A program made the position numbers and the translations under genes. Under the pieces are notes generated by a model, which saw only the letters and a program-made list of their open reading frames with translations, ran no database searches and was not told the origin of the DNA. From Fabrea salina (lineage: Eukaryota; Ciliophora; Heterotrichea; Heterotrichida; Fabreidae): a DNA stretch of 64,000 nucleotides. Every line of letters begins with the position of its first letter. Position 1 is the first letter of the stretch. Where the stretch lies: positions 248,001 through 312,000 of the forward strand of contig JALIHJ010000014.1 in assembly GCA_022984795.1 (NCBI GenBank), read 5' to 3'. Positions 1 to 62,281 of the stretch are shown here, piece by piece.

Positions 1-2308
1 AAAGTTCAGCAGCTTCCCAGTGACTCTTCCTTCTTTCTAAAACTTGGGCTCCTTTGTCGAGAGCCCACTGCACGTGGGAAAGGTCTTTTCCAGAAGCCAA
101 AATAATTCCTTTTAAAATGCTCGGAAAGTCTCCTTCTAGCAAAGAGTAGGTGTCTTTGCACAGAAGACTTTGGAAGTGAGCAGGGCATTGTTTGGGCGAA
201 GTGGGCTTTTTAGGGGCTTTGGGAGCTAGCAAGTTCACAGTGTCTACTGCTAGTTGCATAATGGAGTCTTGAGTGCGGGAACGCGAAAGAGACCTTCTTC
301 CTTCTACGCTTTTGATAAGAGGAGAAGGCTTAGGGGACTTCTCGTGCTTGACTTGTCTAGGAGGTGTTTTAGAAGGCACTTTGGACTTAGGAGTAAGTGG
401 AGACTTAGAGTAGTGGTAGTTAGGCAGGAACTCAGTTATCTTTTTGAGAGTTAAGTAGTAAAAACAGTTGTTGAGCAGTCTGCAGATCAAAAGGTGTCTT
501 TCAGCAGAGGACTCCGTGAAGAACTTAGACTTTAAGTTGCCAGGGAGTTTGTTAAGGATCTTTTTGGCTTTGGAACTGATACAGGTGTTTTCCTTCTTGT
601 GAGTGTAGAGTTGGTCATACGAGTAAATGAGTTCTTTAATGCTCACAGGAAAGTCTAGTATGCTGAAGTTGGAAAAGTTGTTAGAAATGTACAAAAGTTC
701 ATTGTCCATTGCTATTTCTTCACAAACAAACTTAGCACTGAAACCCACTGAACTCAGTAAGTTACCTTCAATGTCCCTCATTTCGTTTTGGTAAATAATA
801 GCTAACTTGCCACTAACTACTCCTAAGTCGTCTGCGGAACCTAACTTACTCAGTCCGCAACTAGTTACAGCGTACACGTTTCCACTAGACAACACAACAA
901 CTTTGTCGTAGCACTCTTCTAGCTTTTCAAGACGCACTTCGCTTTTAGCTATGAAGTGGAAAGCAAACTCAAGTTCTTCTTCTTGGCCTTCTTCACTAAG
1001 CACTTCTAAGCTGTGGACTCCGTTTTTGCTGATGTAAAGAAGTTCCCCCTTGCCTCCCCACTTCATGCCTATTATGCTTTGAGGAGTTTCGAGTTCGTAA
1101 CTAAAGATCTCTGTTTGGTCGTTGTGGTGGAGGTTCAGGATCTCCAAGGAGTTTTGGCCTGTGAGCAAAGCTAAGTACTCCCCTGTTTTACTGATGCACA
1201 TTTCGAGTACAGGATTCGTGAAGTTCTTGATTTTGGACACTTCTTGTTTAAGCACGTTGATTTCGTGCAAGCAGTTCCCCGAAATAGCGTATACTTTGTG
1301 AGTGTAGGCACACAAAAAGTCTATAGTTTCAGCGAAGTAAATGCGCTTAGTGAAGGTGTGGGCTTTCAAACTAAGCAAAGACAAGTACTGCTGACCAGAA
1401 ACCACCAAGTAAACTGAGTCCTTAATAAAAGTTGAACAGTAGTTTCCACAAGGCACGTTCAGGGCTTCCTGTGCAACCTGACTTAGTCTCCAAGGCTTGC
1501 GTAAGTAGTACAGGTTGAGAGTAGAACTTAAACTAACTATGTAAAAAAAGTTGTGTGTAAGACTCATGTTGCCTACACAGACCTTCCCCATTTCGTTGGT
1601 TTTTTCAGACTCAAAGAGTTTTTTGTGCCTGGGAAGTTCAGTGTTCTTTTTGGCCTTCCACAAAGAGATTCTGTGCTGTGAGTTAACAAACAAGTAGTTT
1701 GGTTGGTTAGTGAAGCAGTGTATGTGTAGTATGCTAGGTTCTTTGAAGCAGTGAACTAAGTGCTTTTGGCTTTTCTATTTAAAACTTACAATGTTGTAGA
1801 GTGAAACTCCTTTGTCTTGGACAACGTACACACAGTCCAGAAACCCATTAGCCCACTTTACAAAGCGCGGAGCTTCAATCTTCAAACGAGTCACAGAGTC
1901 CCCAACAACCCAAATTCCAGAACTGAATCCTACGAGGACTCTTCCTTGGTTCATTAAGTCTGCGTCTAAGTAGTCGCCTGATATTTCTACGTCCTTTTCT
2001 TTTATGAACAATCTGTCTTTGAAAAGCACTGCAAGACTGCCTACCCAGCACAAGTCTTTTACTTTGGAACTCCGGAGCAACTTAGGGGGCGACTTGAGGT
2101 TGCAGCTCCAAAGAGAGTCCCCGGCTAAGTACACTTCTTCATTGCCCCATACTATTCTTTTAACTCCGCGGAGTTTGACTTCACACACAATCTTCCAACT
2201 AAGCAAGTCAAACACTACCACTAGTTCAGGGAACCCTAAAGCTACTAACTGCTGCGGACCCAACTCTGCACACACTACTTCTTTCGTGCTTAGCCAGCCT
2301 GTTTCCAT
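1..2308 (-). CDS. Beta-propeller-like protein, partial (runs off left edge)
   Basis: The start is the ATG at 2308. Exon 1 (2308-1790) encodes 173 residues. A 15-base intron (1775-1789) follows, then exon 2 stays open for 591 codons to the left edge, so 764 residues are visible and the C-terminus is missing. The first ~600 residues are runs of short hydrophobic strands, often ending in W or aromatic residues, which suggests WD-like propeller blades. Residues about 620-680 are a Lys/Ser/Pro-rich linker with SR-type motifs, and the rest looks helical. I cannot name the family; WDR-type trafficking or cilia proteins share this plan. Without splicing, the frame would end at the TAG inside the intron. 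The next gene upstream, NEDD1, lies on the same strand and ends 17 bases from this start. Confidence 0.75.
1775..1789 (-). other. 15-base spliceosomal intron
   Basis: On the minus strand the intron reads GTAAGTTTTAAATAG. Removing it joins two long open frames in phase 0. If it is kept, its last three bases are an in-frame TAG. Confidence 0.85.
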
Positions 2309-2325: not shown

Positions 2326-3916
2326 TTAGTAAGTGCTGTGACGAAGACGCATGTTTTCTTCTTTAAGTTCTTCAATTTGTTGCAGCAGTTGTGAGTTTTG
2401 GGTTGAGTACTCTTCTAGCATCGATTTCAGCTCAGCCTACTTACATCTCACCTGCTGAATGGTGAACTGCCGAATAACTTCAACGTGCAAGTTGTTGATG
2501 TTGTCACTCAGGGACAGAATTGCATCTTCTTGTCTGTCAAGTCTTCCTTGGATGAGGTTGATTTTCCCAGTTAGGTCTTCGGAGTTTTGTGCTGGTTGGG
2601 GAGTTTCTGTTTTGGGGGGTTCTTCTTTCCTGGGAAGGGTTTGTGACCTTTGTCTGGGGGGTTCTTTAGTTTCTTCAACAGTGTTTTCAGTTTCTTTTGA
2701 AAAGGATTCTTCAAGTAACTCTTTGGGTTGTTTAACTTCATTGGGTTCTTTAAGTTCATTGGACTCACTAGGTGTTTGAGGGGACTCAGAGGACTCAGGC
2801 TGTTCAGGCTTGGCTTCTTCCTGGCGTTGTTTCCTTTTGGCTTCAACTCTCATGCGGGCTTCTTGTTTGATTTCTTCAATGCTTCTGAAACGTTGCTGGG
2901 TAACGTTGTCTCTGCCTGGAAAATTGAGTGGGGAGTCCTTTACAGATATTGGTTTAAAGTTAGAAGGAGTCTTTTGAGGAGCTGCTCTGGACTCTGAGTT
3001 CCTAATCTTAGAAAACTCCACCCAGTTCACACTGGTGCTTTCGTGTCCGCGGAGCACAGCTTTGGTGTTGTTAATAGCTCTCAAATCGTAAATCTGGACA
3101 CTTCCATACAAAGTGCCCACTCCAATAGTGTGCCCGTCTCCATAAAAAGACAAGCAAGTTATTGGAGAGTCAGTTTCCATAGTTTTCACAGGCCGCTTTT
3201 CATGGATGTCGAAGAACTGGATCTTTTGGTCAAGTCCACTTGTGCAAAGCAGCATGTGATTAACTGCAGAAAAGGCAAGTCCTGTTACAGGGGAGTTGTG
3301 TGTAGTTGCAAAGTTGCACACTGAACTCCTTGAGTTGCAGTCCCAAACATACACTGAGCCATTTTCAGAAGCTGCACCTAAGTAGTGTCTTTTAAAAGGT
3401 GAGTAAGCAATCTTTTTAATCCCTCCTGAACCCCTATACTTAAAGTTAGCTACAGACACCCCTGTAAGCAGTGAGTGAAGAATTATCTCCCCACTCATAC
3501 TGCTACTTGCTAACTGTGAGTCTATGGCATTCCAAGCCACACAAGTCACAGCTTCAGTGTGGTCTGAAAAGTTCATAGTTGACTCTCTTTTGCGCAAGTC
3601 CCACACTCGCACAATTCCGTCTGTGTAAGCGCCTGCAATCAAGTCTGACTTAGAAGTGAAGGATAAACAGTTCACGGGGGAGCTTTCGTTGGAAGCCAAT
3701 ACTCCAAGTTTTTCAGCTGTTTCTGAGTGCGACAAGAAAATTTGGGAGTCTTCTCCTCCAGTTGCAATAACTCGGTTGTTGTGATTCCAAGTCACACACT
3801 TTACCTTTCCAGCGTGAGGCTGGAAGCGTGTGAGGGGGGCTGGGGACTCCAAGTCGTGAGTAAGTACTACCTGTGCTATTAGTTACCGTGCTGCAGGATG
3901 CTATGAAAGTTGACAT
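2326..3916 (-). CDS. NEDD1: NEDD1-like WD40 protein, gamma-tubulin ring recruiter
   Basis: Three exons (3916-3887, 3870-2452, 2436-2326) give 519 residues. NEDD1 brings gamma-tubulin complexes to centrosomes or basal bodies. Residues ~20-300 form WD40 repeats (for example VRVWDLRKRE and YVWDCNS). Residues ~320-450 are a charged Lys/Glu/Pro linker. The C-terminal ~65 residues are a coiled coil. The last exon supplies the segment ending EELKEENMRLRH, which matches the conserved LREENKRLR-type end of NEDD1 in animals, so splicing is needed to complete the family's gamma-tubulin-binding tail. The first ATG lies in a 10-codon exon; the long central frame itself has no suitable ATG at its start. 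In a ciliate this protein would act at the many basal bodies. Confidence 0.88.
2437..2451 (-). other. 15-base intron in NEDD1
   Basis: It reads GTGAGATGTAAGTAG on the minus strand. Removal joins the central frame to the conserved coiled-coil tail; retention ends the protein at the TAG inside it. The GTG start of the intron differs from the usual GTA. Confidence 0.85.
3871..3886 (-). other. 16-base intron in NEDD1
   Basis: It reads GTAACTAATAGCACAG on the minus strand. Removal links a 10-codon ATG exon (from 3916) to the WD40 frame. The frame continues upstream of the first recognisable WD residues, so an added N-terminal exon is needed. Exact borders could shift slightly. Confidence 0.7.
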
Positions 3917-19996: not shown

Positions 19997-20839
19997 TTAA
20001 AAGTTGTTTGTGGGAAAGGAACCTTGGTAGATGTTTCTGATTGTTCTGACTCTGTTGATTCGGATAGCTTTGACTTTTCTGGTCTTTTTAAAAGGAGACC
20101 TGGATCTTTCTTCTTTGAGTTTTTCTTGGGAGTTAATGACTCTTTCAAACTTCTTTTCAGGGGTAAACGAACCTCCTAGGACCTTGCTTAGTTTAGGAGG
20201 AGAGGCGTTCAACCTAGGCAAAACACTGGAAGTAATTGTTTTTGGTTCTATGAATTGTTGCTTAGGTTTGGGAAGGGGTTCTTTTTGTATGTTTTGGTTT
20301 ATGGTTTTTGACTTCTTTATGGGGTCGTGACTGCTGCTTTTTAAGCACTCTTGAGCTTCTTGTTTTTTGCTTTCAATCAGTTCTCTGGGTTTCCTTATGA
20401 AGAACTTAGAGTTGCGGTAAGAGGGCCTTTTAAAACTCCTTCTGACTTTGGAACTTGACCTACTGGTTCTGTTGCTTCTAGAAATGATGGGTTCTTCGGG
20501 TAGTTTAAAGTACTCTTCGTATTTGATAGTTAAGTTGTTTTTCAAATCTAGAACGGTCCCGTCTAAGTTGTCCCTTGCAATATAAGTGTTTTTAGAGGGC
20601 TTTACAACTCCGTCGATGTTTTTTCTTTGGAGTTTTCTGTATGTAAATTACTACTCAGCAGCACTTTGGAGGTCCAAAAACATGGCTTTGGCTCTTTGTT
20701 CCTCAGGGTTAATGTTAGTTTCGTGAGTTTCAGTTTTGTACTCAAGTACTTCAACCCTTGGGCTGAACTTTACTCTTTCAGCCCCTGTCTGATCAAACTC
20801 AGCTATCAAGACGTAGTTCGAAGCAACGCTTAAAGCCAT
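19997..20839 (-). CDS. Basic protein of unknown function, two exons
   Basis: The second exon (20636-19997) is open for over 200 codons yet contains no ATG, so it needs an upstream exon. A short ATG frame at 20839 (MALSVASNYVLIAEF) ends at TAG 20653-20651. Removing an 18-base GT-AG segment (20637-20654) joins them in frame to give 274 residues. The N-terminal part may be globular; the rest is Lys/Arg/Ser rich with Ser-Pro motifs. No known family. The start lies 8 bases after the RSPH3 stop on the same strand. The alternative is a 62-residue protein plus an unrelated gene. Confidence 0.6.
20637..20654 (-). other. Putative 18-base intron
   Basis: It reads GTAGTAATTTACATACAG on the minus strand. 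The usual 15-base version (starting at the inner GTAATTT) would create TAA at the junction, so only the 18-base choice keeps the frame open. It is longer than the other introns here. Confidence 0.5.
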
Positions 20840-39385: not shown

Positions 39386-41615
39386 ATGAAAACTAAAATA
39401 AAACTCTTGATTCAGAAAGGAAAAAGTTTAGGAGGCACTGAAGCCCAAAGCATGGAAGGCTTCATAAACAACTTGTGCGCAAGCGAAGCTGACAAGTGCC
39501 CCAGTCCTTCTGAAGAAAGCCCCTCCAACCCCATACACTCCATAGTAGTTGTGGGCTTCGACCACAAAAAAGGCAGCATTGTTGAGTACCAGTACCCCTC
39601 TGACGCCCAAGAGTTCCCTATTCTACCTTACCTGAGTCTTCCTGACTCAGTCCACAACGAGTCCCACGACTTTTTGTACTTCACACTCCAAAGTGGCGGA
39701 CAATACCTTTACTGCGTAAGTTGTTTCCGACAAGTCAGGAACTCCAAACAAGCCCAAAGCCTAGAACGCAACTGCGTACAAAAGGCTGTAGTAGTTGTTT
39801 CCCGCCTGCCTTATCTGGGACTGATAGCTTCGAGAATGCAAGCAACTACCGAAGTTTACTTTGAACAAGAAAACTTTGAAAACACCCAGATACTTAAAGA
39901 CATGTACGAGTCTCTGCAAAGTAGTTTCGAAAACACTCACTCCAGCCAACTCAACACTGGCTTTTCAACTAGGAAACTTTTGATGACTCTTAAAGAAAAC
40001 CTAATGGTTCTGTTTAAACTGTTACTGCTTGAAGCCAAAGTTATAGTCTTTTCCAAGAAGCCAAGCAACCTCAGTTGTGCTATTTGGAGTCTTTTGTCCC
40101 TTTACCCAGGACAACTTTGCTTCGGAAGCAAACACTTCCGGAGTTACTTAGGAAGACTAGGCACCTACGGTCTGCCTTTGGAGTTGTTCCACAGCAACTG
40201 TGAGTTGCACCCTTACTTCTCCATATTCCAGTTAGAAGAAATGCAGGCCAAAGGGTACTTAATGGGATGCACCAACGAAATGATTGTGCAGCACCCTAAA
40301 TCTGAACCCCACGCCATTTTGGACTTGGACTCTTCTAGCTTAACAGTTCTGCTCACTAAGCAAGAGCAAAAGGCCCTTAAACTTTCAAAGCATGAAAAGC
40401 TCTTCATCAAAAACTTAGTTAGAGTAAGTTCCAATCAGAAAACTGATAAAACTTTCCACTCCAGTGAAAGTTGGTTTGGGTCTGAAAACTTAGAGTGGGA
40501 AGGAAGCAACGAACACATTAAAACAGAGTTCCACAACTTCCTCAAAGAGATTCTTTCCAACCTAGCTTTGCTGAAACTCAAGTTTTTAGGCGACACTGAC
40601 TACAAAGAAGCAATTCCTTCCGACAGCGAAACAGAAGAACAAACAAACAACTACCTCCACCTCGACCCCAAACTAGGTAAGTTCAGGAAGTACAAAAAGT
40701 TCACCAAAGGTTTTAAAAAAGAATTCTTGATTAAGTGGTCCTACACCAGCAACTTCAAAGTCTGGGCTAGAAAACATCCCAAAGTTTTAGGAGTGCTTTC
40801 GCCACTAGCTGGTAACTTACACTCAGGTCCAGTCCAAAAAGTCAGGGTGATTTACGAAAACGGAGAAACTTACACAGGCTCGATGCAAAACGGAAAAAGG
40901 CAAGGAATAGGTGTCTTGACAGACAGAGAAGGCAATAAGTACGAAGGTGAGTGGCAAGACAACATGGTATGTGTCTATTAAGAGATGGGGCTTAGGAACC
41001 TTAACAAGCTCTGAAGGAGTCTATGACGGAGAGTGGGTCCAAGACCTGAAGCACGGCAACGGCCGCCAAATTTTGGGACAAAAGCAGTACTCCGGAGGGT
41101 TCAGGCAGGGAAAGTACGAAGGATTTGGAGTGCTTGTAGACGAAGAAGGCGGGATCTACGAAGGCGACTGGAAAATGGGACTCCAAAACGGAATGGGTCA
41201 CTGGCACAGCCCAGAAGGGACAGTTTACAGAGGCGAGTTTTTGGATGGGGAGTTCCATGGCCAAGGCCAGTTGATTCTGCCCAACGGAGAAACTTATGTA
41301 GGACACTTCCAGAAGGGAAAAAAGCACGGTTTGGGAGAATACTTTTACGAAGACGGAGAAATCTATAAAGGAATGTTTTACGATGACAACAAACACGGCA
41401 GAGGAACTATAATTAAGGAAGACGGGTCTGAAATCACAGCAGTTTTTAAAAGAGGAGAAGTGAGTTTGGGTTCTTGCTGTGTGGACTACAAAGATGGGAA
41501 AAAGTACCAAGGAGCTTTGGACAAGCAACTGAGACCTCATGGAAAAGGAGTGATGACTCTGAAGTCAGGAAGCATAATTCCGAGTTTTTGGGAGCATGGA
41601 AATCAGAAGGTTTAA
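39386..41615 (+). CDS. AVL9-type DENN protein fused to MORN repeats
   Basis: Exons 39386-40966 and 40983-41615 give 737 residues. Residues ~48-340 match the AVL9 DENN domain: VVVGFDHKKGSIVEYQYPS, LPDSVHNESHDFLYFTL, VSCFRQV and the Leu-rich LFKLLLLEAKVIVFSKK. AVL9 works in Golgi-to-surface transport. From ~485 to the end are about nine MORN repeats (YTGSMQNGKRQGIGV, YEGDWKMGLQNGMGH), usually membrane- or cytoskeleton-binding. The 16-base intron sits inside the MORN array, so the fusion depends on splicing. I know of no animal or yeast AVL9 with MORN repeats. Confidence 0.85.
40967..40982 (+). other. 16-base intron inside the MORN array
   Basis: It reads GTATGTGTCTATTAAG. Removal joins DNM to RWGLGTL in phase 0 and completes a MORN repeat; retention hits TAA within it. 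Confidence 0.85.
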
Positions 41616-45300: not shown

Positions 45301-48015
45301 GTAGAGTTTCAAAAAAGAAATGTAGTGCATACGGATATAGTACAAGGCAAACTCTTCGTTGCGGAAACAAGTGAACCTGGGAGAAAACCAAAAAAGATTT
45401 ATCAGGAGTTCCAGGATTGCCCTTGTGATGTGCATGTACCTAGGAGGGGGCGAGTAGGGGTGCAGTTTGGAAGACTTAATTTCTGGGTTGTGCTTTTGCA
45501 AGTACTTAGGTATGACACCGTAGCTAGGCGACAACAACCAAACCAGTCCGTTGAGGACTCTGCACACACACTCCTTCCAGTTCTTTTGGTTGGGGTTCAG
45601 TTCAGAGGACTTTTTTTCAAGTTGGATTTCGTTAACTATTTTCCTGCAAAAAATAGCAATTGCGTTGAAGTACTTGACTACAGACCTGGCTTCTTGTCTG
45701 ACACTTTCTCCAATCACACTCGCAGCAAAAGTCCTCACAGTTTCGTTCCAAGTGTCGTTTGCCACGAACACGTCAGACAACAGTTTGTAAGCCTCTGTAG
45801 TGTGGCTTTGGAGAAGCAACTGTGAAACCACTGAAAGCAAACTAGCAAACACCTGGCGGTTAGGTGCAGGGTTTTGGCCATTTGAAGGCGGACACGAACT
45901 CCACTCCATCATTTCTATGAGTCGTTTTTTAGTAGAAAGTAAGTTTTCAAACATCAAGTCTACTGCCTGGAAAAATGTTACTCGACTTGCACATGCTCTC
46001 AGGTACTTGGAAAGCACCTTCAAAACCTCGTTTTCTAGTTCGAAAAGCCTTGTTCCTGAAAAGTTTTCTTGGGCCCAAGTTAGTCTTCGTTGGAGTCTGA
46101 ACATAGCTAAGTCAGACTTTTTTCTGAGTTTTTCTTTTGGGAGGTCTTGCCAAGCAATTCCCTGAACCCAAAAAGGACTTTCTTTCGGCAAAGCTTCTTC
46201 CACCAACATGCTGAACCCTAAACTGCAGTTGGGGGACCTTTTAGGCGACTCATTAGTGAAAGTTCCAATCAAAAAGGGACTGCTGTAGGGAGTAACTGCT
46301 GCTTTGTGTATGCTTTCAGTGTGCTGTGCAAAGAAGTTCAGTATTGTGAAAATAGCTTTGTGTTCAGGAATGAGGAGTTCCTTTGACTTGACAATCTTGT
46401 AGAAAGCTAACTCCAACTCAGAACTATCGTCTGCAAAAGGCACTGAGTAGTTAAGTGAGTTTTGGGAAGACTGCTTCTGGGCGTAAGCCCCTCGAGGACT
46501 CATTCCGGGAACAGTGTTAGAAGGCACTACTTCTGCTTCTTCTTTGAGTTGTTGGAGGTTTTCTTGTTCATCGTTTTCGTGTTTGTCTTCTCCAGAGCAC
46601 CCTAGTTCTTCTTCGAAGATTTCAGTTTCGTCGTCACTGAACTCTGCGTTTTCTTGGGCCTTCATTGACAGAATGGCTTGTTGTCCACTGAACTCTTCTG
46701 AAAGGATGTGTCCAACCAAAATGTTTTGTGGCGACCTTACAAACTGGAGTTCAAAGGGATCATACATCTGGAGGAGGTGGTTCACTAAAGTAAGGAGTGC
46801 AGCTCTTAGTTTGTGGAAGTGAGTGTGAGGTTTTCTGTTGGTCTTTTCGGCTCTTTTGACTTCAGAAAGGGAGTTAGAGCGTTGTCTGAGTTTGTGTTTG
46901 AGTTTTTTGTCTGGGTTTTGGGAGCTCTTTTCTAAGTCGTTTGTTGGAAAAACTGTTCGTTTAGCTGCTTTTTCTAATTCAGAGTCCCTTTTTTGGGCCA
47001 AAAGAGCTGTTAAGTCAGCAGTTAAACAGGCTTCCCCCAGCTGCATTGCTAGGTTGTACATTACTTTTGAAGGAGGGACTACCTCGTTCATGTTGGTGCT
47101 TTCTTCTGCAATGAAGGAACTCTCGAAGTCAAAAACTTGGGAAGCGTTGTTGAGTTTGGGGAAGGGACTTGCATTCACAGGCGTTTGGTCTCCCCATGAA
47201 CCTGAAAACCCTGAAAACCTCGACCGGTAAGAAGCAGACTTGTCCCGGAAAGAGTCTTCTTGTGGCAAGTTCAGAACTGGAACCACAGGAGACCTAGGCC
47301 TGGACTCCTCAACCCTTTCGCGTGCAGCGCGGCGCAAAGCACGTGAAGAAACTGTGTGTCCGTAAAGCATAGGAAGTTCCAGCATGAAACTCTCTCCTTC
47401 CGAAACTATTGACTTGTTCAAAGTGGTTCGGTACTCTGGAGGAGCGTTGGGAATCGAAGGAGACCTGAGGAAAGGACCCGAGTAAGAATTCTTGCGATTG
47501 TGAAGTGGCTTTGAAGGGGCAGAGTTACTTGTAGGCTGCATGGGGTTTCCGCATATGGATTCTAGTTGTGCTACGCAAATACTAAGCACTTCCATTTCCT
47601 TAGCGGTGAAGCGGACTTGTTCGGAGTTGCCGACAAGTCTTATTAAAAGTAAGTACAAACTAGTGCACACAGGGTGTTCTTCCAGGTGCTGCATGCAAAC
47701 TTCCACTACTCTTTCGGCAGCCACTTCGCTTTTGTAGCACAGCTTGACCAAAATAATAGCTATTCTGTCGAGCAAAACCTCTTCGAAAGTTTTGTTTTCG
47801 AGTTTGGAGAGTTTGGCAGACCGGGAAGTTTTAGTGAAGGTTTCGCAGGACAAGGGAATTAGTTTGTCGATGAGTTGTTCTATGAAAATTGGAAGACTGT
47901 GCCTTTCTATTATGAATTCGTTCAATTCGTTCTGTATTGCCCCAAGTGTGTGAAGAAGGGTTTCACTGAATTCTTCATGACCTGAAAGCTGGTCTAAAAG
48001 AGTAACGCGGTCCAT
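42310..48015 (-). CDS. Giant protein kinase with phosphatase-like and Cys-rich C-terminus
   Basis: 1901 residues, the largest gene here. Residues ~1-1180 are mostly helical or disordered with no known domain. The kinase domain spans ~1225-1500: glycine loop ATGAYGTVYEC, Lys in AVAVKKM, catalytic loop HYDLKCDN (Tyr replaces the usual Arg), DFGECRMF, and SPEML in place of APE. Near 1535-1655 lies a dual-specificity-phosphatase-like domain (LYLCSQEF, KLGITHVVHAG) whose Cys-x5-Arg site is absent (VLFVENEKLWIIECLL), so probably dead. Residues ~1690-1745 have many Cys (CLCGSC, SCNCSRQ), likely zinc-bound. Looks like a TKL-type signalling scaffold. Confidence 0.8.
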   Translation of the reverse strand: MDRVTLLDQLSGHEEFSETLLHTLGAIQNELNEFIIERHSLPIFIEQLIDKLIPLSCETFTKTSRSAKLSKLENKTFEEVLLDRIAIILVKLCYKSEVAAERVVEVCMQHLEEHPVCTSLYLLLIRLVGNSEQVRFTAKEMEVLSICVAQLESICGNPMQPTSNSAPSKPLHNRKNSYSGPFLRSPSIPNAPPEYRTTLNKSIVSEGESFMLELPMLYGHTVSSRALRRAARERVEESRPRSPVVPVLNLPQEDSFRDKSASYRSRFSGFSGSWGDQTPVNASPFPKLNNASQVFDFESSFIAEESTNMNEVVPPSKVMYNLAMQLGEACLTADLTALLAQKRDSELEKAAKRTVFPTNDLEKSSQNPDKKLKHKLRQRSNSLSEVKRAEKTNRKPHTHFHKLRAALLTLVNHLLQMYDPFELQFVRSPQNILVGHILSEEFSGQQAILSMKAQENAEFSDDETEIFEEELGCSGEDKHENDEQENLQQLKEEAEVVPSNTVPGMSPRGAYAQKQSSQNSLNYSVPFADDSSELELAFYKIVKSKELLIPEHKAIFTILNFFAQHTESIHKAAVTPYSSPFLIGTFTNESPKRSPNCSLGFSMLVEEALPKESPFWVQGIAWQDLPKEKLRKKSDLAMFRLQRRLTWAQENFSGTRLFELENEVLKVLSKYLRACASRVTFFQAVDLMFENLLSTKKRLIEMMEWSSCPPSNGQNPAPNRQVFASLLSVVSQLLLQSHTTEAYKLLSDVFVANDTWNETVRTFAASVIGESVRQEARSVVKYFNAIAIFCRKIVNEIQLEKKSSELNPNQKNWKECVCRVLNGLVWLLSPSYGVIPKYLQKHNPEIKSSKLHPYSPPPRYMHITRAILELLINLFWFSPRFTCFRNEEFALYYIRMHYISFLKLYSNNQPFSKKEDYKLNATTGKSGSSLESPQPSAYLKSCLLLSKIHLKALFAYARNRTPDVTRKFFQFRILEFLTREIDLEYDITLRREKFIRMHKAEKKKITQKFQKEEVKVPPPSAGNPVPKLNMPKLEEQTKKPSIPALKINLLSQDPDKKEMEKQEFVKAMVKEPQKTYGLTRIQKSLDGTSKFHLALDKPNPDKKDLVESQEICKEKEFYEQQRRQREIYSDEELQTCMLGLIFCLLLTPTRGTLEELYCSQYPINNGIPNVLFLLHYHLNHPSNQHILPKLQKLITHIVPPLAGQRLLKLLASHFFDPSIYSSWHKIATGAYGTVYECKTGLPDPPAVAVKKMSVPKTIYDRCVLHDIFTEITCLEEFRLEKGVTDLFDYGVDENDYYIVMKRYPISLKQWREQLSGSLEEHLPKFLTVYREILKAVKIIHKNNVTHYDLKCDNVFLEDPIEECQITIGDFGECRMFINSEDETCLRNKGTEYIKSPEMLDLTRAARKDNDKFDRRRKVGTTRASDIWSLGCLLYELLTGEFLFYHQDWVVFYIRCTSYKEELLKEENLEKLNGNVYLVDFLKYMLMRDPRHRPTIDSALNRFEHIHALLVSAPSVSRRPPSAHQLRSFSELEQVLEVCVNLRSGISGNRIKSPRPSLLRITHDLYLCSQEFFKQNTLQLMKLGITHVVHAGLEDSALKIFQHTMVGPAPLQSLPGVMDFLRSAHLANGRVLFVENEKLWIIECLLVCLSEIFNTSFFEAWSLVKSQVLFVDVPLESLTKLSIWTLQQRKIKDYLGRYPRYQCLCGSCTIILKRHLADPKYQVTRSCNCSRQFRNVDTAECPSPGCGDFISQLKDLHSLSWNSLNWGFAERDDFLIGPFNEDKAHEQVILSSFNLDANAELFRVVEKRPWRSGIDQWALYRCKVCSLWMFAISNDESRVAYLMNVNVSGEWEGIMSGGQSVPVLSRIKLPLLVQQQGSRMVKPKVSYVSTFTPSIKNPNPPT

Positions 48016-48101
48016 TTTATATTACAGTTTAAATAGCACTGAAGAATTCAGTTTGTTGACCAAACTTCCATTTTTCGAATAATAAAGCGTTAAGAATAAG
48101 A

Positions 48102-49451
48102 ATGTAAAATTCAATTAGGTCTAAGCACTCCCACGAAAGAAAGTCTACCAAACCCAAGTCAATTGGAGCTTATGCAATCATGAAAAGCATTGGACAAGGA
48201 ACTTTCGGCAAAGTCAAACTAGGAATTCACACCTTAACTGGTGAAAAAGTCGCAGTTAAAATTTTAGAAAAAGAAAAAATCTGCGACGTCGCAGACGTAG
48301 AAAGGGTCTCCCGAGAGATCCACATCCTGAAACTCATAAGACACCCCAACATCATCCAACTTTACGAGGTAATTCCCAAGCAGATCATAGAAACTCCCAC
48401 TAAAATCTACTTAATCATGGAATACGCTAGCGGTGGTGAACTCTTCGATTACATAGTAGAGAAAACCCGACTCCCCGAAGAAGAAGCCTGTAAGTTCTAC
48501 CAGCAAATTTGTTCGGGAATCGAATACATCCACAAACTCAAAATAGTCCACCGTGACTTAAAGCCTGAGAACTTGTTGCTTGACAACAAAAAGAACATTA
48601 AAATAGTGGACTTCGGCCTAAGTAACATCTATACAAACGAAGAGTTCTTAAAAACAGCTTGTGGAAGTCCTTGTTACGCTGCACCAGAAATGATAGCAGG
48701 GAAAAACTACGACGGACTCAAAGCTGACATATGGAGTTCGGGGGTAATTCTTTTTGCCATGAGTTGTGGGTACTTGCCCTTCGAGGACGAAAACACTTCT
48801 AAGTTGTACAAAAAAATACTTGCAGGGGACTACAAGTGCCCCAAGTTTATTTCAGACGAACTCAGGGAGTTGATTCAGAAAATCCTAGAAACTGACCCTG
48901 AAAAAAGACTCTCCATCCCCGAAATAAGACAACACACTTGGGTCAAGCAAGTCCAAATCGACACTAGACCTGGCATACTCACGGGCTACGACACCATACT
49001 TGTTGACAAAAACATCTTGGCCAAGCTCCTCAACTACGGGGACTTCGACCTGAACTACGCCCAAAAGTGCATTGAAGCAAATAAGCACAACCATATCACT
49101 ACTTTGTATAACTTACTTCTAAAAAAGCACTTGCTAGAAGGTGGCAAGTCTATAGCCGACTACACTGAACTGAAGTTGCAACCCCAACCTCCACCCCAGG
49201 AAAAAAAGCCTGGAACCTTCCAACGCAAGCACTTTAGCCGGCCTGACAGCACAGGAGGTTCGATGTCGCGTGAAATACTCCGCAAAAACTCTCCCTCTCC
49301 AAACAAGATGAGGAGGTACCGAGTGTCAAGACGCACCCCCAAACCTCCTTCACGGAAAAGTCAAGAACCCAATAAGCAACCCACTAAGCCCAGTCCCAAA
49401 GCTGGAAAGTCAGTAGACCCTCGGTTCAGAAGGAATTATAAATTCAAGTAA
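48102..49451 (+). CDS. SNF1/AMPK-type protein kinase with a split start codon
   Basis: 444 residues. The kinase domain (~18-275) is complete: GQGTFGKVKLG, VAVKIL, HRDLKPENLL, DFGLSN, T-loop FLKTACGSPCYAAPE (site for an LKB1-like activator) and DIWSSGVILFAM. A following UBA-like segment (LAKLLNYGDFDLNYAQ) resembles the autoinhibitory part of AMPK relatives. The tail is Pro/Ser/Lys-rich. The only upstream ATG is made when the intron at 48104-48118 is removed: exon 1 ends in AT and exon 2 begins with G. Unspliced RNA reads ATGTAA and encodes nothing. A later ATG at 48180 would start inside the first strand of the domain. Confidence 0.85.
48104..48118 (+). other. 15-base intron that interrupts the start codon
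   Basis: It reads GTAAAATTCAATTAG. The splice joins AT to G, building the ATG and opening MSKHSHERKSTKPK, which runs into the kinase domain. The upstream frame before the split has no ATG before a stop. Confidence 0.75.
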
Positions 49452-51460: not shown

Positions 51461-52798
51461 ATGAGTGAAAAGCAGGATAGTCAAAAAAGTGTAAAGCAGA
51501 TCATTGCAGGAGTGTCGACAGTAGCTGCAGGACTCCTCATGAACTTGGTAAGTCCTACCTAGATTGCAGGCAATGTAGCAAACTGGGGCATGCTGTACCC
51601 CTACATTGCTTCTTACCTCAAGTCCCACGACCCCAGTGTGACATTTTCAGAAGTTTTCAATGCCCAAGCATTTTCACTCCTACTGGAGAACTTAGGAGTT
51701 GTGTCAGCCCCCCATCTAGCTACACACCTTGGGGTAAGAACTACCCTTCTCATCGGAGGACTTTTATGTGCTATCGGCTACGGATTCTGCAGCTTTGTCA
51801 CAAACGCAGGGCTTCTTGTAGCAATATATTCCATTTTCTTCGGAGTTGGTTCGGGTATGATCACTATAACAACTTTCTGGCCAGCTTGGGACCACTTTCC
51901 CAACAACAGGGGCAAAGTCACTGGTTTCATTATGTCTGGCTACAGTTTAGCTACTATTGTGTTCGGGCTAATGTTTACTTTCATAGTAAATCCCAAGAAT
52001 GTGGTTCCTTACCGAAGCGGAAACGACGTGAACTTTGGAGAAGAAGTCAACTCAACTGTTCCGTATGGAATGCTAGCCATTGGCTTTACTTTTGCAGTTG
52101 TTACTTTGGTGGCTATATTCATGATCAGGCCTACCAACGTCCATTCACAAACTTCAATGTCTTCGCCCCCTGGCAAGTTCCCACTTGCTAAAGTTTTGGG
52201 TTCTCTGAGGTTTTGGAACTTATTTGGAGTGGGCTACACTGTGTTTTTCTTTTGGTACTTCTTTGCTGGAGTTTACAAGTCTTACGGACTCAAAACTATA
52301 GGAGACGACCACTTCCTCTCCTACATCGGTTCTGTGTCGGGGATTTGTGCAGGAATCGGAAGGATTTTTTGGCCTTGGTTTTTGGACATATTCAAGTTTC
52401 GGGCAGTTCTCACAGTCACCATGGCATTACAGGGAATGCTCTGTTTGTCCCTGCACTTCATTTCTGGCAGCAAACTTTTGTACGGTTTAGCTGTTCCTGC
52501 TATTTTCTTCTGCACCTCTGCTCAGTACCCAAGTTTGGCTGTTGAAACTGGAAAAATCTACACAGTCTTTAGTTCCCAGGTGTGGCCTTTGCTCTTTTTC
52601 GGAGTCACTTTGGCTTCTGCAAGTGCTATTTTGCTCAAATACGTCGCAGAAATCATAGGCTATCTGTACATCTTTGTTTTGGCTGCTTTTGTAATTGGAA
52701 TTAGCATTTTGCTTTTGTGGATTCTGAACGACGAGCCTGTTGTTTGGGAAGAAAAACCCTCCATTGAAGAGTTAGAAGAACCCTTACTCAAGATATAA
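51461..52798 (+). CDS. MFS transporter, oxalate/formate-antiporter-like
   Basis: 440 residues from the ATG at 51461; exons 51461-51547 and 51563-52798. Twelve membrane helices are apparent. Spliced helix 1 reads MNLIAGNVANWGMLYPYIAS, typical of the OFA/monocarboxylate group. Later GSGMITITTFWPAWDHFPNN and RGKVTGFIMSG carry the family's loop between helices 4 and 5. The substrate is not known; related proteins move monocarboxylates across the plasma membrane. Without splicing the frame ends at TAG 51560-51562 after 33 codons. Confidence 0.85.
51548..51562 (+). other. 15-base intron in the MFS gene
   Basis: It reads GTAAGTCCTACCTAG and lies between Leu29 and Ile30 of helix 1. Its last three bases are an in-frame TAG if retained. 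Confidence 0.88.
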
Positions 52799-56236: not shown

Positions 56237-56440
56237 CAGAGAAATCAAGAATTACGTCAACATCATCGTCAAGACCAGAAAAACCTACAAGAAGAAACAG
56301 AACAAGAAAACGAAACAACGACACCTTCAACTCAAGAAGAAAGACAAAAAAGGAAAAGAACAGAAGACCACAAACTAACAAAAAACACAAGAAAACCCAC
56401 CCAGTAGAGGCCTAGGCGACTTGAACTACCTCAAATAAAT
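56235..56440 (+). mobile_element. Dispersed repeat, copy 1 (LINE-like 3' fragment)
   Basis: About 206 bases closely match 62051-62260 on the same strand. The better copy reads as a coding tail rich in Glu/Lys/Arg, then TAG and CTCAAATAAAT. This copy is degraded by at least one indel in that frame and ends with AAATAAATTAAAT. The tail runs into the stop codon of the next gene. No target duplication is obvious here. The full element is not in the window. Confidence 0.6.
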
Positions 56441-57608: not shown

Positions 57609-58723
57609 ATTAAGAACTGCAAAAAACTCGAAGAAACTCTGGATATCAGTAACTCTGAAAAAGCTGTGACACTGTGCAATTTAGACTCTCTTTACGAAGC
57701 CACTAAAAAGTACTCAGACTCTGAAAGGATGTACTTGGAGTGTGTACAAACTCTTAAAAAGGACCCTAAAAGCTTGGAACTGACTTGGACATACATGAAG
57801 CTAGGGGACTTAATGAACTGCCAAAGCATGTTCCAGCAAGCAGAAACTTACTTTCTCAAGTGCAAGAACACAGTTGAAAGCATTGTAGTTCACAAAAACG
57901 AAGACTTAGCAAGCACTTACTACACAGCCTAGGAGCCTTTTACTTAGACTCAGAAAACCTAGAAAAGCCACTTAAGTTCTTACTTAAAGCCAAGGCATTC
58001 CACAAATTCCAGAAACCAGAACACAAAGTCACCATAGTCAGAAGCCTAGGCAAGTTACACTCTAAGAAAAAAGATTTTAAGTCAGCTGAAAACCTTTACT
58101 TGGAGTTTTTGGGGGAGATTAAGGAGTACCCAGATCTAATTGCACAAATTCACTACGAACTAGGCTGTGTTTACTGCGAGCAAAACAAACTCCAAGAAGC
58201 AGAGACTGCCCTCAGCAAGGCAGCAACTTCCAAAGAACTCCTAAGAAGCATTTATTACGAGCTGTCAAAGGTCTATTCCAGTTCAGGCCAAAAAGCTAAG
58301 GCTGAACACTATTTGTTGCAGTTTGAAGAAATCGAAGAAAAGCAGTCTCCCAAGTCCATCAACTTAGCTGAAACTTACTATGCTTTAGGAGAACTCTATA
58401 CACAGAGTCTCAAGTACAGAGATGCTGAGTTAATGCTGCTTAGTTGTCTGGAAATAGAACAACAAGTTTACGCAGAGTACAACGAAAGCATTGCAAGGAC
58501 CTTTTACTCCTTAGGCGAACTCTACTACTTCATGGAGAAATACAAGGCATCTTCAGATTACTTTACTAAGTACTCAGTTGCTATGAAGTGCGTTCCTAAC
58601 AAAGACATTGCAGAACTTAAACGCAAGTACAGGTATATTCACGAGAACTTCCGTCAAGTAGGTTGGCACTCAATAACCAAACAGTGGGTTTCTAAAATCA
58701 AAGCACTCCATAAAAGTAACTAA
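57609..58723 (+). pseudogene. TPR-repeat gene, no clear start, one frame break
   Basis: TPR-like helices are visible throughout (EATKKYSDSERMYLECV, HYELGCVYCEQNKLQEAETA, YYALGELYTQSLKYRDAELM). The frame opens after a TGA at 57606-57608 with no ATG before a conserved region. It breaks at about 57928, where the next frame continues the TPR sequence (LGAFYLDSENLEKPLKFLL). The 3' part (58100 on) is intact and ends in TAA. So this is a 5'-truncated TPR protein gene with one indel, or a sequence error plus a missed first exon. Confidence 0.6.
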
Positions 58724-58733
58724 GGGGCTAAAT

Positions 58734-59164
58734 ATGCTGGACTCTGAGATAACTACTTATCTTTCCAAGTACTCTGTTGTTTCTATTCCTTTGATGTCTT
58801 TGGCTTTCAACGTGCCTCAGAAGTTAGTGGCTTCAAGGGTCTTGAAACTCATCAACCAGAATGACTACATACAGATAGTGGTGGTCTACAGCAAAAACAC
58901 TGTTAAAATTCTTCCTAGAAAAAAACCAAAAGCTCTACACTGTACGCACTTGTAAAGGACCCTCAGGACATCAGGTGCTTGTACTGGCTAGAAACATTTG
59001 AGAAAAGGACTATTTGGGACCAAAGCACCTTGTTTTTGCCCCCCTCTACAATTAAGCCCCTTACCCAAAAGCCTAGAAGAACCCAGAAGAAGCTACCTGA
59101 GTTCTTTTCGAAGACTCCAAAACTGACTTTTGAAAGAATATATTGCCTTGAAGACATTTTCTAA
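58734..59164 (+). pseudogene. Winged-helix (PCI-like) fragment with a frame break
   Basis: An ATG frame at 58734 encodes LSKYSVVSIPLMSLAFNV and LVASRVLKLINQNDYIQIVV, like the winged helix at the end of PCI proteins. It stops in TAA after 73 codons. The next frame continues plausibly (ALVKDPQDIRCLYWLE) to 59164, implying one indel near 58935. I found no 15-16 base intron that restores phase. It may be part of the neighbouring TPR gene or a separate small gene. Confidence 0.45.
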
Positions 59165-59180: not shown

Positions 59181-60340
59181 ATGGACCACTCGTGTGAGAA
59201 TAGTCAGTCCAGTGACTGCAGACAAGCTAGGAAGGAGCATGATGGAAAATTCCAGCAATTCTTGAATTACCCTGAGTCAGTTAGTTCTCTGAAAGTAGAA
59301 CCAGGAGCAGAGTTTGAGGCGCTGGTGGGTGTACTGCCTCATTCGAGTCTTAATGAACTGGATTTGGAAGGTAATGAAATAGGCGACGAGAGAGCAAAGG
59401 AATTAGTTAATGCTTTGCCTAATTCCCAACTCACTACACTGCATTTGGGAGGTAATAAATTAACCGAAGAGGGAGCTGTGGCACTAGCTAATGCTTTGCC
59501 TAGTTCCCAACTCACTAAACTATATTTGCGACGTAATGTAATAGGTGACGAGGGAACTGTGGCATTAGCTAGTGCTTTGCCCAATTGCCAACTCACTGAA
59601 CTCGAATTGGAAAAGAATGAAATAGACACAGAAGGAACTGTGGCATTAGCTAGTGCTTTGTCTAATTCCCAACTCATTAAACTGAATTTGGGAGGTAATG
59701 GAATAGGCGATGAGGGAGTTGTGGCACTAGCTAATGCTTTGCCCAATTCCCAACTCACTACACTGCATTTGGAAGATAATGAAATAGGTGAAGAAGGAGC
59801 TGTAGCACTAGCTAGTACCTTACCTAATTCTCAACTCACTGAACTGCATTTGGGAGGTAATGGAATAGGCACAGAGGGAGCGAAAGCACTGGCTAGTACC
59901 TTCCTAACACCCAACTCACTACACTGCATTTGGGGGGTAATGGAATAGGTGATGAAGGAGCGAAGGCACTGGCTAGTACCTTACCTAATTCCCGACTCAG
60001 TACACTGGAATTAGAAGATAATGAAATAGGTAATGAGGGAGCTGTGGCATTAGCTAGTACCTTACCTAATTCTCAACTCACTGAACTGCATTTGGGAGGT
60101 AATGGAATAGGTACAGAGGGAGCGAAAGCACTGGCTAGTACCTTGCCTAACACCCAACTCACTACACTGCATTTGGGGGGTAATGGAATAGGTGATGAAG
60201 GAGCGAAGGCACTGGCTAGTGCTTTGCCTAACACCCGACTCACTAAACTATATTTGAAGATCAATCAGATAGGCGACGAGGGAGCCAAGACACTAAAGGA
60301 AGCTGAATCCAAACTCCCTGATCTTAGAATCTTCTTTTAA
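59181..60340 (+). CDS. LRR protein of near-identical 81-base repeats, one frame break
   Basis: Start is the ATG at 59181 (MDHSCENSQSSDC). About twelve 27-residue LRRs follow (for example SQLTTLHLGGNKLTEEGAV, SQLTELHLGGNGIGTEGAK), nearly identical in DNA. Units ~6-8 and ~9-11 form a second-order 243-base duplication. One base is missing near 59902 (CTTCCTAAC here, CTTGCCTAAC in the sister unit), so the frame breaks and resumes in the next frame from 59930 to a TAA at 60340. This may be decay or a sequence error in a repeat. T-ending codons are more common than in the left 56 kb. Function unknown; NLR-type or allorecognition LRRs look alike. Confidence 0.65.
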
Positions 60341-62011: not shown

Positions 62012-62281
62012 ATATCTAAACTAATAACAGCAAAACAAAAACAAAAATTAGACAGAGAAATCAAAAACTACGTTAACATCATCATTAAGACCAGAAGAAC
62101 CCCACAAGAAGAAACAGAACAAGAAAAAGAAGCAACAACACCCCCAACTCAAGAAGAAACGCGAAAAAGGAAAAGAACCGAAGACCAAAAATCAACGAAA
62201 AGACACAAGAAAAACCCACCCAGCAGAGGCGTAGGCGGCTTGAACTAGCTCAAATAAATAAATAAATATCTAAACTAATAA
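62012..62281 (+). mobile_element. Dispersed repeat, copy 2, flanked by a 16-base direct repeat
   Basis: ATATCTAAACTAATAA occurs at 62012-62027 and again at 62266-62281, bracketing 238 bases. Inside, 62051-62260 matches copy 1. Its frame encodes DREIKNYVNIIIKTRR, a Glu/Thr-rich run, then RKRKRTEDQ and KRHKKNPPSRG, ending in TAG, then CTCAAATAAATAAATAAAT. A coding 3' end, an AAAT tail and a long target duplication are what a 5'-truncated LINE insertion leaves. A retained internal eliminated sequence flanked by pointers is the alternative. Confidence 0.65.

Follow-up and report, generated by a model that had tools for sequence, protein, structure and literature searches.

Within the 64,000-nucleotide stretch of Fabrea salina DNA analysed here (hereafter, the window), the plus strand at 48102-48119 reads ATGTAAAATTCAATTAGG, that is, AT (48102-48103), GTAAAATTCAATTAG (48104-48118) and G (48119), at the 5' end of a protein kinase gene. 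The features of this locus are as follows.

48102..48103, plus strand: bases 1 and 2 (AT) of the split start codon, with A at -3 (48099)
48104..48118, plus strand: putative 15-nt spliceosomal intron GTAAAATTCAATTAG, phase 2, with A at position 10
48105-48107, plus strand: in-frame TAA, present if the intron is retained
48119, plus strand: base 3 (G) of the split start codon, as read from the sequence
48120..49448, plus strand: remaining kinase coding sequence, 443 further codons, with the stop codon TAA at 49449-49451
48162..48179, plus strand: codons for IGAYAI, which resembles IGNYQI of Snf1 in alignments and is lost if translation starts at 48180
48180..48182, plus strand: internal in-frame ATG, a possible fallback start, aligned with the V of yeast Snf1 (IVK)

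Excision of 48104-48118 in silico generates ATG TCT AAG and a protein of 444 aa (MSKHSHERKSTKPKSIGAYAIMKSIGQGTFGKV...), whereas retention leaves the frame unchanged and gives ATG TAA. The first-pass annotation had proposed a 15-base intron inside the kinase start codon, and the sequence and coordinates that it gave are exact; the spliced and unspliced readings that it contrasted were both reproduced, the spliced frame being that of a 444-residue SNF1/AMPK-like kinase. The neighbouring minus-strand gene has its first in-frame ATG at 48015, so 86 bases lie between the two starts.

The Pfam Pkinase domain covers residues 19-276 of the spliced product (E 7.3e-80). Among the 60 best of 2,783 matches to solved structures, the kinase domain was closest to AMPK-alpha/Snf1: AMPK alpha-1 (308.1 bits), AMPK alpha-2, Ssp2 of fission yeast (296.3) and yeast Snf1 (290.7) preceded BRSK2 (268.5), SIK3, MARK and others. 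The C-terminal adenylate-sensor or beta-gamma binding domain was absent among the 11 Pfam families matched up to E = 1, all of them kinase-like, although the filters may drop weak matches. Since the adenylate-sensor domain of AMPK alpha was not found, SNF1/AMPK-related is the safe name for this protein, rather than AMPK alpha. In NCBIfam, 19 prokaryotic kinase-type families were matched and none reached the cut-off. No orthologous locus was found in viral_contigs (6 pattern matches, no relative) or genome_contigs, viral and prokaryotic collections in which only close relatives are within reach; the sole relative among the 80 pattern matches in genome_contigs, 32 residues of kinase sequence on a contig from Patescibacteria (L001), was set aside.

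The putative intron has GT...AG ends, a terminal TAG, an A at position 10 and an AU-rich composition (12 of 15 bases A or T, 80% A+U), and thus the characters of the class of 15- or 16-nt introns. In Stentor coeruleus, 8,173 of the 8,806 annotated introns (92.81%) are reported to be 15 nt long, with the branch A at base 10 in 8,005 of these 8,173; the introns are about 76% A+U, are biased towards the 5' end of genes and are carried by 18.14% of genes (PMC9505925). The kinase intron is like these reported introns in its 15-nt length, GT...AG ends, A10, AU richness and 5' bias, and it is like the 15/16-nt introns reported for Blepharisma stoltei in length (PMC9942806). Introns of this kind fit a heterotrich origin of the DNA. 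The G+C content of the window is 42.5%, as compared with a reported A+T content of 66% for B. stoltei (PMC9942806). Position 5 is an A in the kinase intron and a G in both other 15-nt introns of the window, a point against a split-start intron. Moving the excision by one base in the 3' direction produces an identical RNA, but only the unshifted reading has canonical GT...AG ends. A search for alternative kinase introns of 14-20 nt, retaining those that gave an in-frame ATG and that also were 15-16 nt long or had a branch-type A at -6, returned none besides 48104-48118.

We estimated how often such a pattern would arise by chance. The strict form (AT-GTA-N6-A-NN-TAG-G), which was based on the published Stentor introns and on introns in the window, and was partly set after this site had been seen, occurs once on both strands of the whole window, at the kinase site. 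The mirror form (A-GTA-N6-A-NN-TAG-TG) also occurs once in the window, at 47648, antisense within the neighbouring gene, and is probably a chance occurrence; strings of this kind therefore do occur by chance, which argues against a split-start intron. The looser pattern was counted 3 times (AT/G, 15 nt), 8 times (A/TG, 15 nt), 0 times (AT/G, 16 nt) and 9 times (A/TG, 16 nt) in the window. In 20,000 dinucleotide shuffles of 48015-48119, with 48120-48179 held fixed, an in-frame split ATG appeared once with the strict pattern and 18 times with the loose one, and an intron-dependent ATG of any kind 21 and 211 times, respectively; a plain in-frame ATG was present in about 17% of shuffles. As the strict pattern was partly set after the kinase site had been seen, its shuffle figure flatters the claim. 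Nevertheless, the frequency obtained with the loose pattern (18/20,000) remains small.

The window probably holds five tiny introns besides that of the kinase gene. A strict scan for 15/16-nt introns, requiring an upstream ATG and at least 100 open codons downstream, yielded four candidates: 1775-1789 (minus), 48104-48118 (plus), 51548-51562 (plus) and 59808-59823 (minus). The first and third of these are internal introns; the last, which lies antisense to another ORF, was rejected as probably due to chance. Three more, 40967-40982, 3871-3886 and 20637-20654, came from laxer scans and inspection by eye.

1775..1789, minus strand: probable 15-nt intron GTAAGTTTTAAATAG, 173 codons into a gene, judged from the reading frame alone
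51548..51562, plus strand: probable 15-nt intron GTAAGTCCTACCTAG, 29 codons into an MFS transporter gene (reading frame and Pfam)
40967..40982, plus strand: probable 16-nt intron GTATGTGTCTATTAAG, within a MORN repeat of an Avl9/DENN-MORN gene, with A at position 11
3871..3886, minus strand: probable 16-nt intron GTAACTAATAGCACAG, 10 codons into a WD40 gene, with A at position 10, not 11
20637..20654, minus strand: possible 18-nt intron GTAGTAATTTACATACAG, after 61 codons, of atypical length and the least certain (reading frame)

Excision of 40967-40982 restores the MORN repeat (EGEWQDNMRWGLGT), and a Pfam search with the first 272 residues of the gene containing 1775-1789 gave no family above the cut-off. 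A 15-nt reading inside the 18-nt candidate at 20637-20654 leaves an in-frame stop. Including the kinase intron, three of the six probable introns interrupt the first 29 codons or follow them immediately. Introns with a stop codon or a frame shift are picked up preferentially by these scans, so the rate of stop-containing introns is not derivable from this set.

Several other regions of the window are irregular. A TPR-like gene (by eye) at 57609-58720 seems to change frame near 57930, and no early ATG is present in its first part; the break may reflect decay of the gene, an error in the sequence or a missed intron. The ORF at 58734-59161, which begins at ATG 58734, has an apparent frame shift (by eye) in an A run near 58918, likely to be a homopolymer indel or a sign of a pseudogene. 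A gene at 59181-60340 resembles leucine-rich repeats by eye, with very similar units and a frame break near 59900. The regions 56240-56420 and 62050-62260, similar to each other by eye, flank a gene-poor region and are possibly repeat copies. Neither a tRNA scan with the bacterial code nor a search of Rfam at gathering scores gave a match within the window.

The lack of an in-frame ATG upstream of the kinase domain, as claimed in the first-pass annotation, is strictly true: between 47991 and 48260, the plus strand contains just three ATGs, at 48102, 48172 and 48180, of which that at 48172 is out of frame, and the interval from the preceding stop to 48180 has no plain in-frame ATG. However, ATG 48180 precedes the glycine loop and is just three residues past the start of the Pfam domain, and the statement that translation of the kinase is wholly dependent on splicing is too strong, because a shortened kinase could be produced from this codon. 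It is the full-length kinase that would require splicing, given a 15-base intron inside its start codon.

The reading in which the intron is an ordinary one, standard in its features, located in phase 2 of the initiator codon of the SNF1/AMPK-related kinase and probably removed constitutively, is the one that we consider very likely. If transcription begins in the 86-base gap, splicing would join AT to G and thereby create the first AUG of the mRNA, from which the ribosome would translate the full kinase. An RNA retaining the intron would present AUG-UAA, which does not lead to the full-length protein, followed by the in-frame AUG at 48180, from which a shortened kinase would be possible in principle. 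The ATG TAA reading needs no special cause, since every GTAA intron in phase 2 yields TAA at once.

It is unlikely, albeit not negligibly so, that there is no functional intron at this site and that translation starts at ATG 48180, giving a kinase of 423 residues without the first part of the first strand of the kinase domain. This ATG is in frame and retains the glycine loop, being only three residues into the Pfam domain. Its context was compared with that of 32 ORFs of at least 150 codons from the window, in which at most 37 codons separate the first ATG, taken as the predicted start, from the preceding stop, a set that includes 48180 itself. At -3, 14 of these ORFs carry A, 11 carry T, 6 carry G and 1 carries C. 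The base at -3 of ATG 48180 is A, and the AAA that follows this ATG is typical of the window (12/32, 21/32 and 17/32 ORFs at +4 to +6). The split ATG is preceded by A at -3 and -1, with a G at -2 (3/32 ORFs), and once spliced is followed by TCT, with T at +4 in 1/32, C at +5 in 3/32 and T at +6 in 4/32 ORFs. These counts are a point for a start at 48180 and speak against the split start.

The residues encoded upstream of 48180 argue the other way. In the alignment of the kinase (SIGAYAIMKSIGQGTFGKVKL) with Snf1 (HIGNYQIVKTLGEGSFGKVKL), IGAYAIMK faces IGNYQIVK, with the glycine loop making up most of the short match; the motif IG.Y.I precedes ATG 48180, the methionine of which occupies the position of a valine in Snf1. 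Queries starting at 48120 rather than 48180 gained about 5 to 9 bits against AMPK/Snf1 chains (4red, 308.1 vs 301; 2fh9, 290.4 vs 281.8; 3h4j, 296.3 vs 287.3; 7jhg, 304.6 vs 299.7), as compared with about 3 bits for MELK (4cqg, 262.2 vs 259.2). The Snf1-like residues upstream of 48180 therefore indicate that translation should begin upstream of this codon, where no plain ATG exists. The mean codon score of the 20 codons 48120-48179 equals that of the rest of the ORF (0.22 in both), which is weak evidence against a start at 48180, since 48030-48101 reaches 0.22 as well in a non-kinase frame; with 20 codons, the score is a poor discriminator of coding and non-coding sequence and was not relied upon.

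Published data on other ciliates bear on how the ordinary intron that we favour would behave. Of 26,123 introns measured in Paramecium bursaria, more than 87% are reported to have a retention below 0.1 in all samples, a point for constitutive removal, with low-GC and gene-end introns spliced best; however, introns of 15-22 nt are less well spliced than those of 23-26 nt (PMC12862383), which counts against the split-start intron. Short 3n introns are described as enriched in in-frame stops in most of the ciliates studied, a feature seen as a guard against retention, but the ultra-short introns of Tetrahymena go the opposite way (PMC5014332), and this exception is likewise a point against.

The on/off control suggested in the first-pass annotation has no positive evidence in its favour. 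According to this explanation, to which we give very little credence, state-dependent retention of the intron would turn kinase output on or off at the start codon, with the retained AUG-UAA blocking scanning or triggering decay. The retained RNA would contain AUGUAA, and an AUGUAA in the 5' leader of the plant NIP5;1 mRNA is reported to stall ribosomes and trigger boron-dependent mRNA decay (PMC11915504); differential retention also exists for some ciliate introns, 992 of them in P. bursaria. The unspliced kinase RNA would be like that of Arabidopsis NIP5;1 in having AUGUAA ahead of the coding region. However, the AUGUAA of NIP5;1 is described as part of the mRNA leader (PMC11915504), whereas that of the kinase would go by splicing, and stalling on it is only putative. 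Moreover, the intron features are typical of the ordinary tiny class, TAA follows automatically from GTAA in phase 2, and there is no unusual RNA structure around the site: the predicted fold of 48050-48200 was not more stable than shuffles (z = +0.92, with 171 of 200 shuffles reaching an equal or better fold). It is highly improbable that condition-dependent retention makes the kinase alternate between translation in full and an "off" state with an AUG-UAA RNA, in which a shortened kinase might be made from 48180.

Least credible, to the point of being almost dismissed, is that splicing is unneeded because TAA is read as an amino acid or because translation initiates at a non-AUG codon, such as ATT 48162; ATT 48114 and ATC 48177 are also in frame. 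In Condylostoma, all three stop codons are recoded. Some ciliates do recode stops, with UGA reported as tryptophan in Blepharisma (PMC9942806), but in the window 9 of 43 chosen ORFs had a same-frame open neighbour of at least 40 codons across one stop, a test not fully independent because the 43 ORFs were themselves chosen stop to stop, and among these neighbours a coding score above 0.1 was found only at the intron-containing 1775 pair. Stop-codon reassignment in the window was therefore not supported by this same-frame neighbour test.

As to the use of stop codons in general, 41 of the 43 chosen stop-to-stop ORFs have a complete stop (TAA 32, TAG 9, TGA 0), some of these ends being intron stops or frame breaks rather than true ends of genes. 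The frequency of TGG, with 225 among 19,203 codons, is ordinary. This genome may avoid TGA as a stop.

Introns disrupting the start codon, in phase 1 or 2 of codon 1, were described as relatively rare by Nielsen and Wernersson in 2006 (PMC1626468). If real, the kinase intron, with its AT/G split in phase 2, belongs with these cases, being like them inside the initiator codon; they come from vertebrate, arthropod, fungal and plant genes, and the kinase intron differs in being 15 nt long. Our literature search found nothing on split or interrupted start codons beyond this study, which is weak evidence given that the wording varies. As far as these sources go, both parts are known, namely start-codon introns (PMC1626468) and the tiny introns of heterotrichs (PMC9505925, PMC9942806), and what would be new is their combination.

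Regulated retention, if true, would make this site a very compact translational switch. If the intron is spliced as we infer from the DNA, the locus would be a clean case of a full-length start codon existing only after the splicing of a 15-nt intron, and gene finders that need an intact ATG would miss or truncate this kinase gene.
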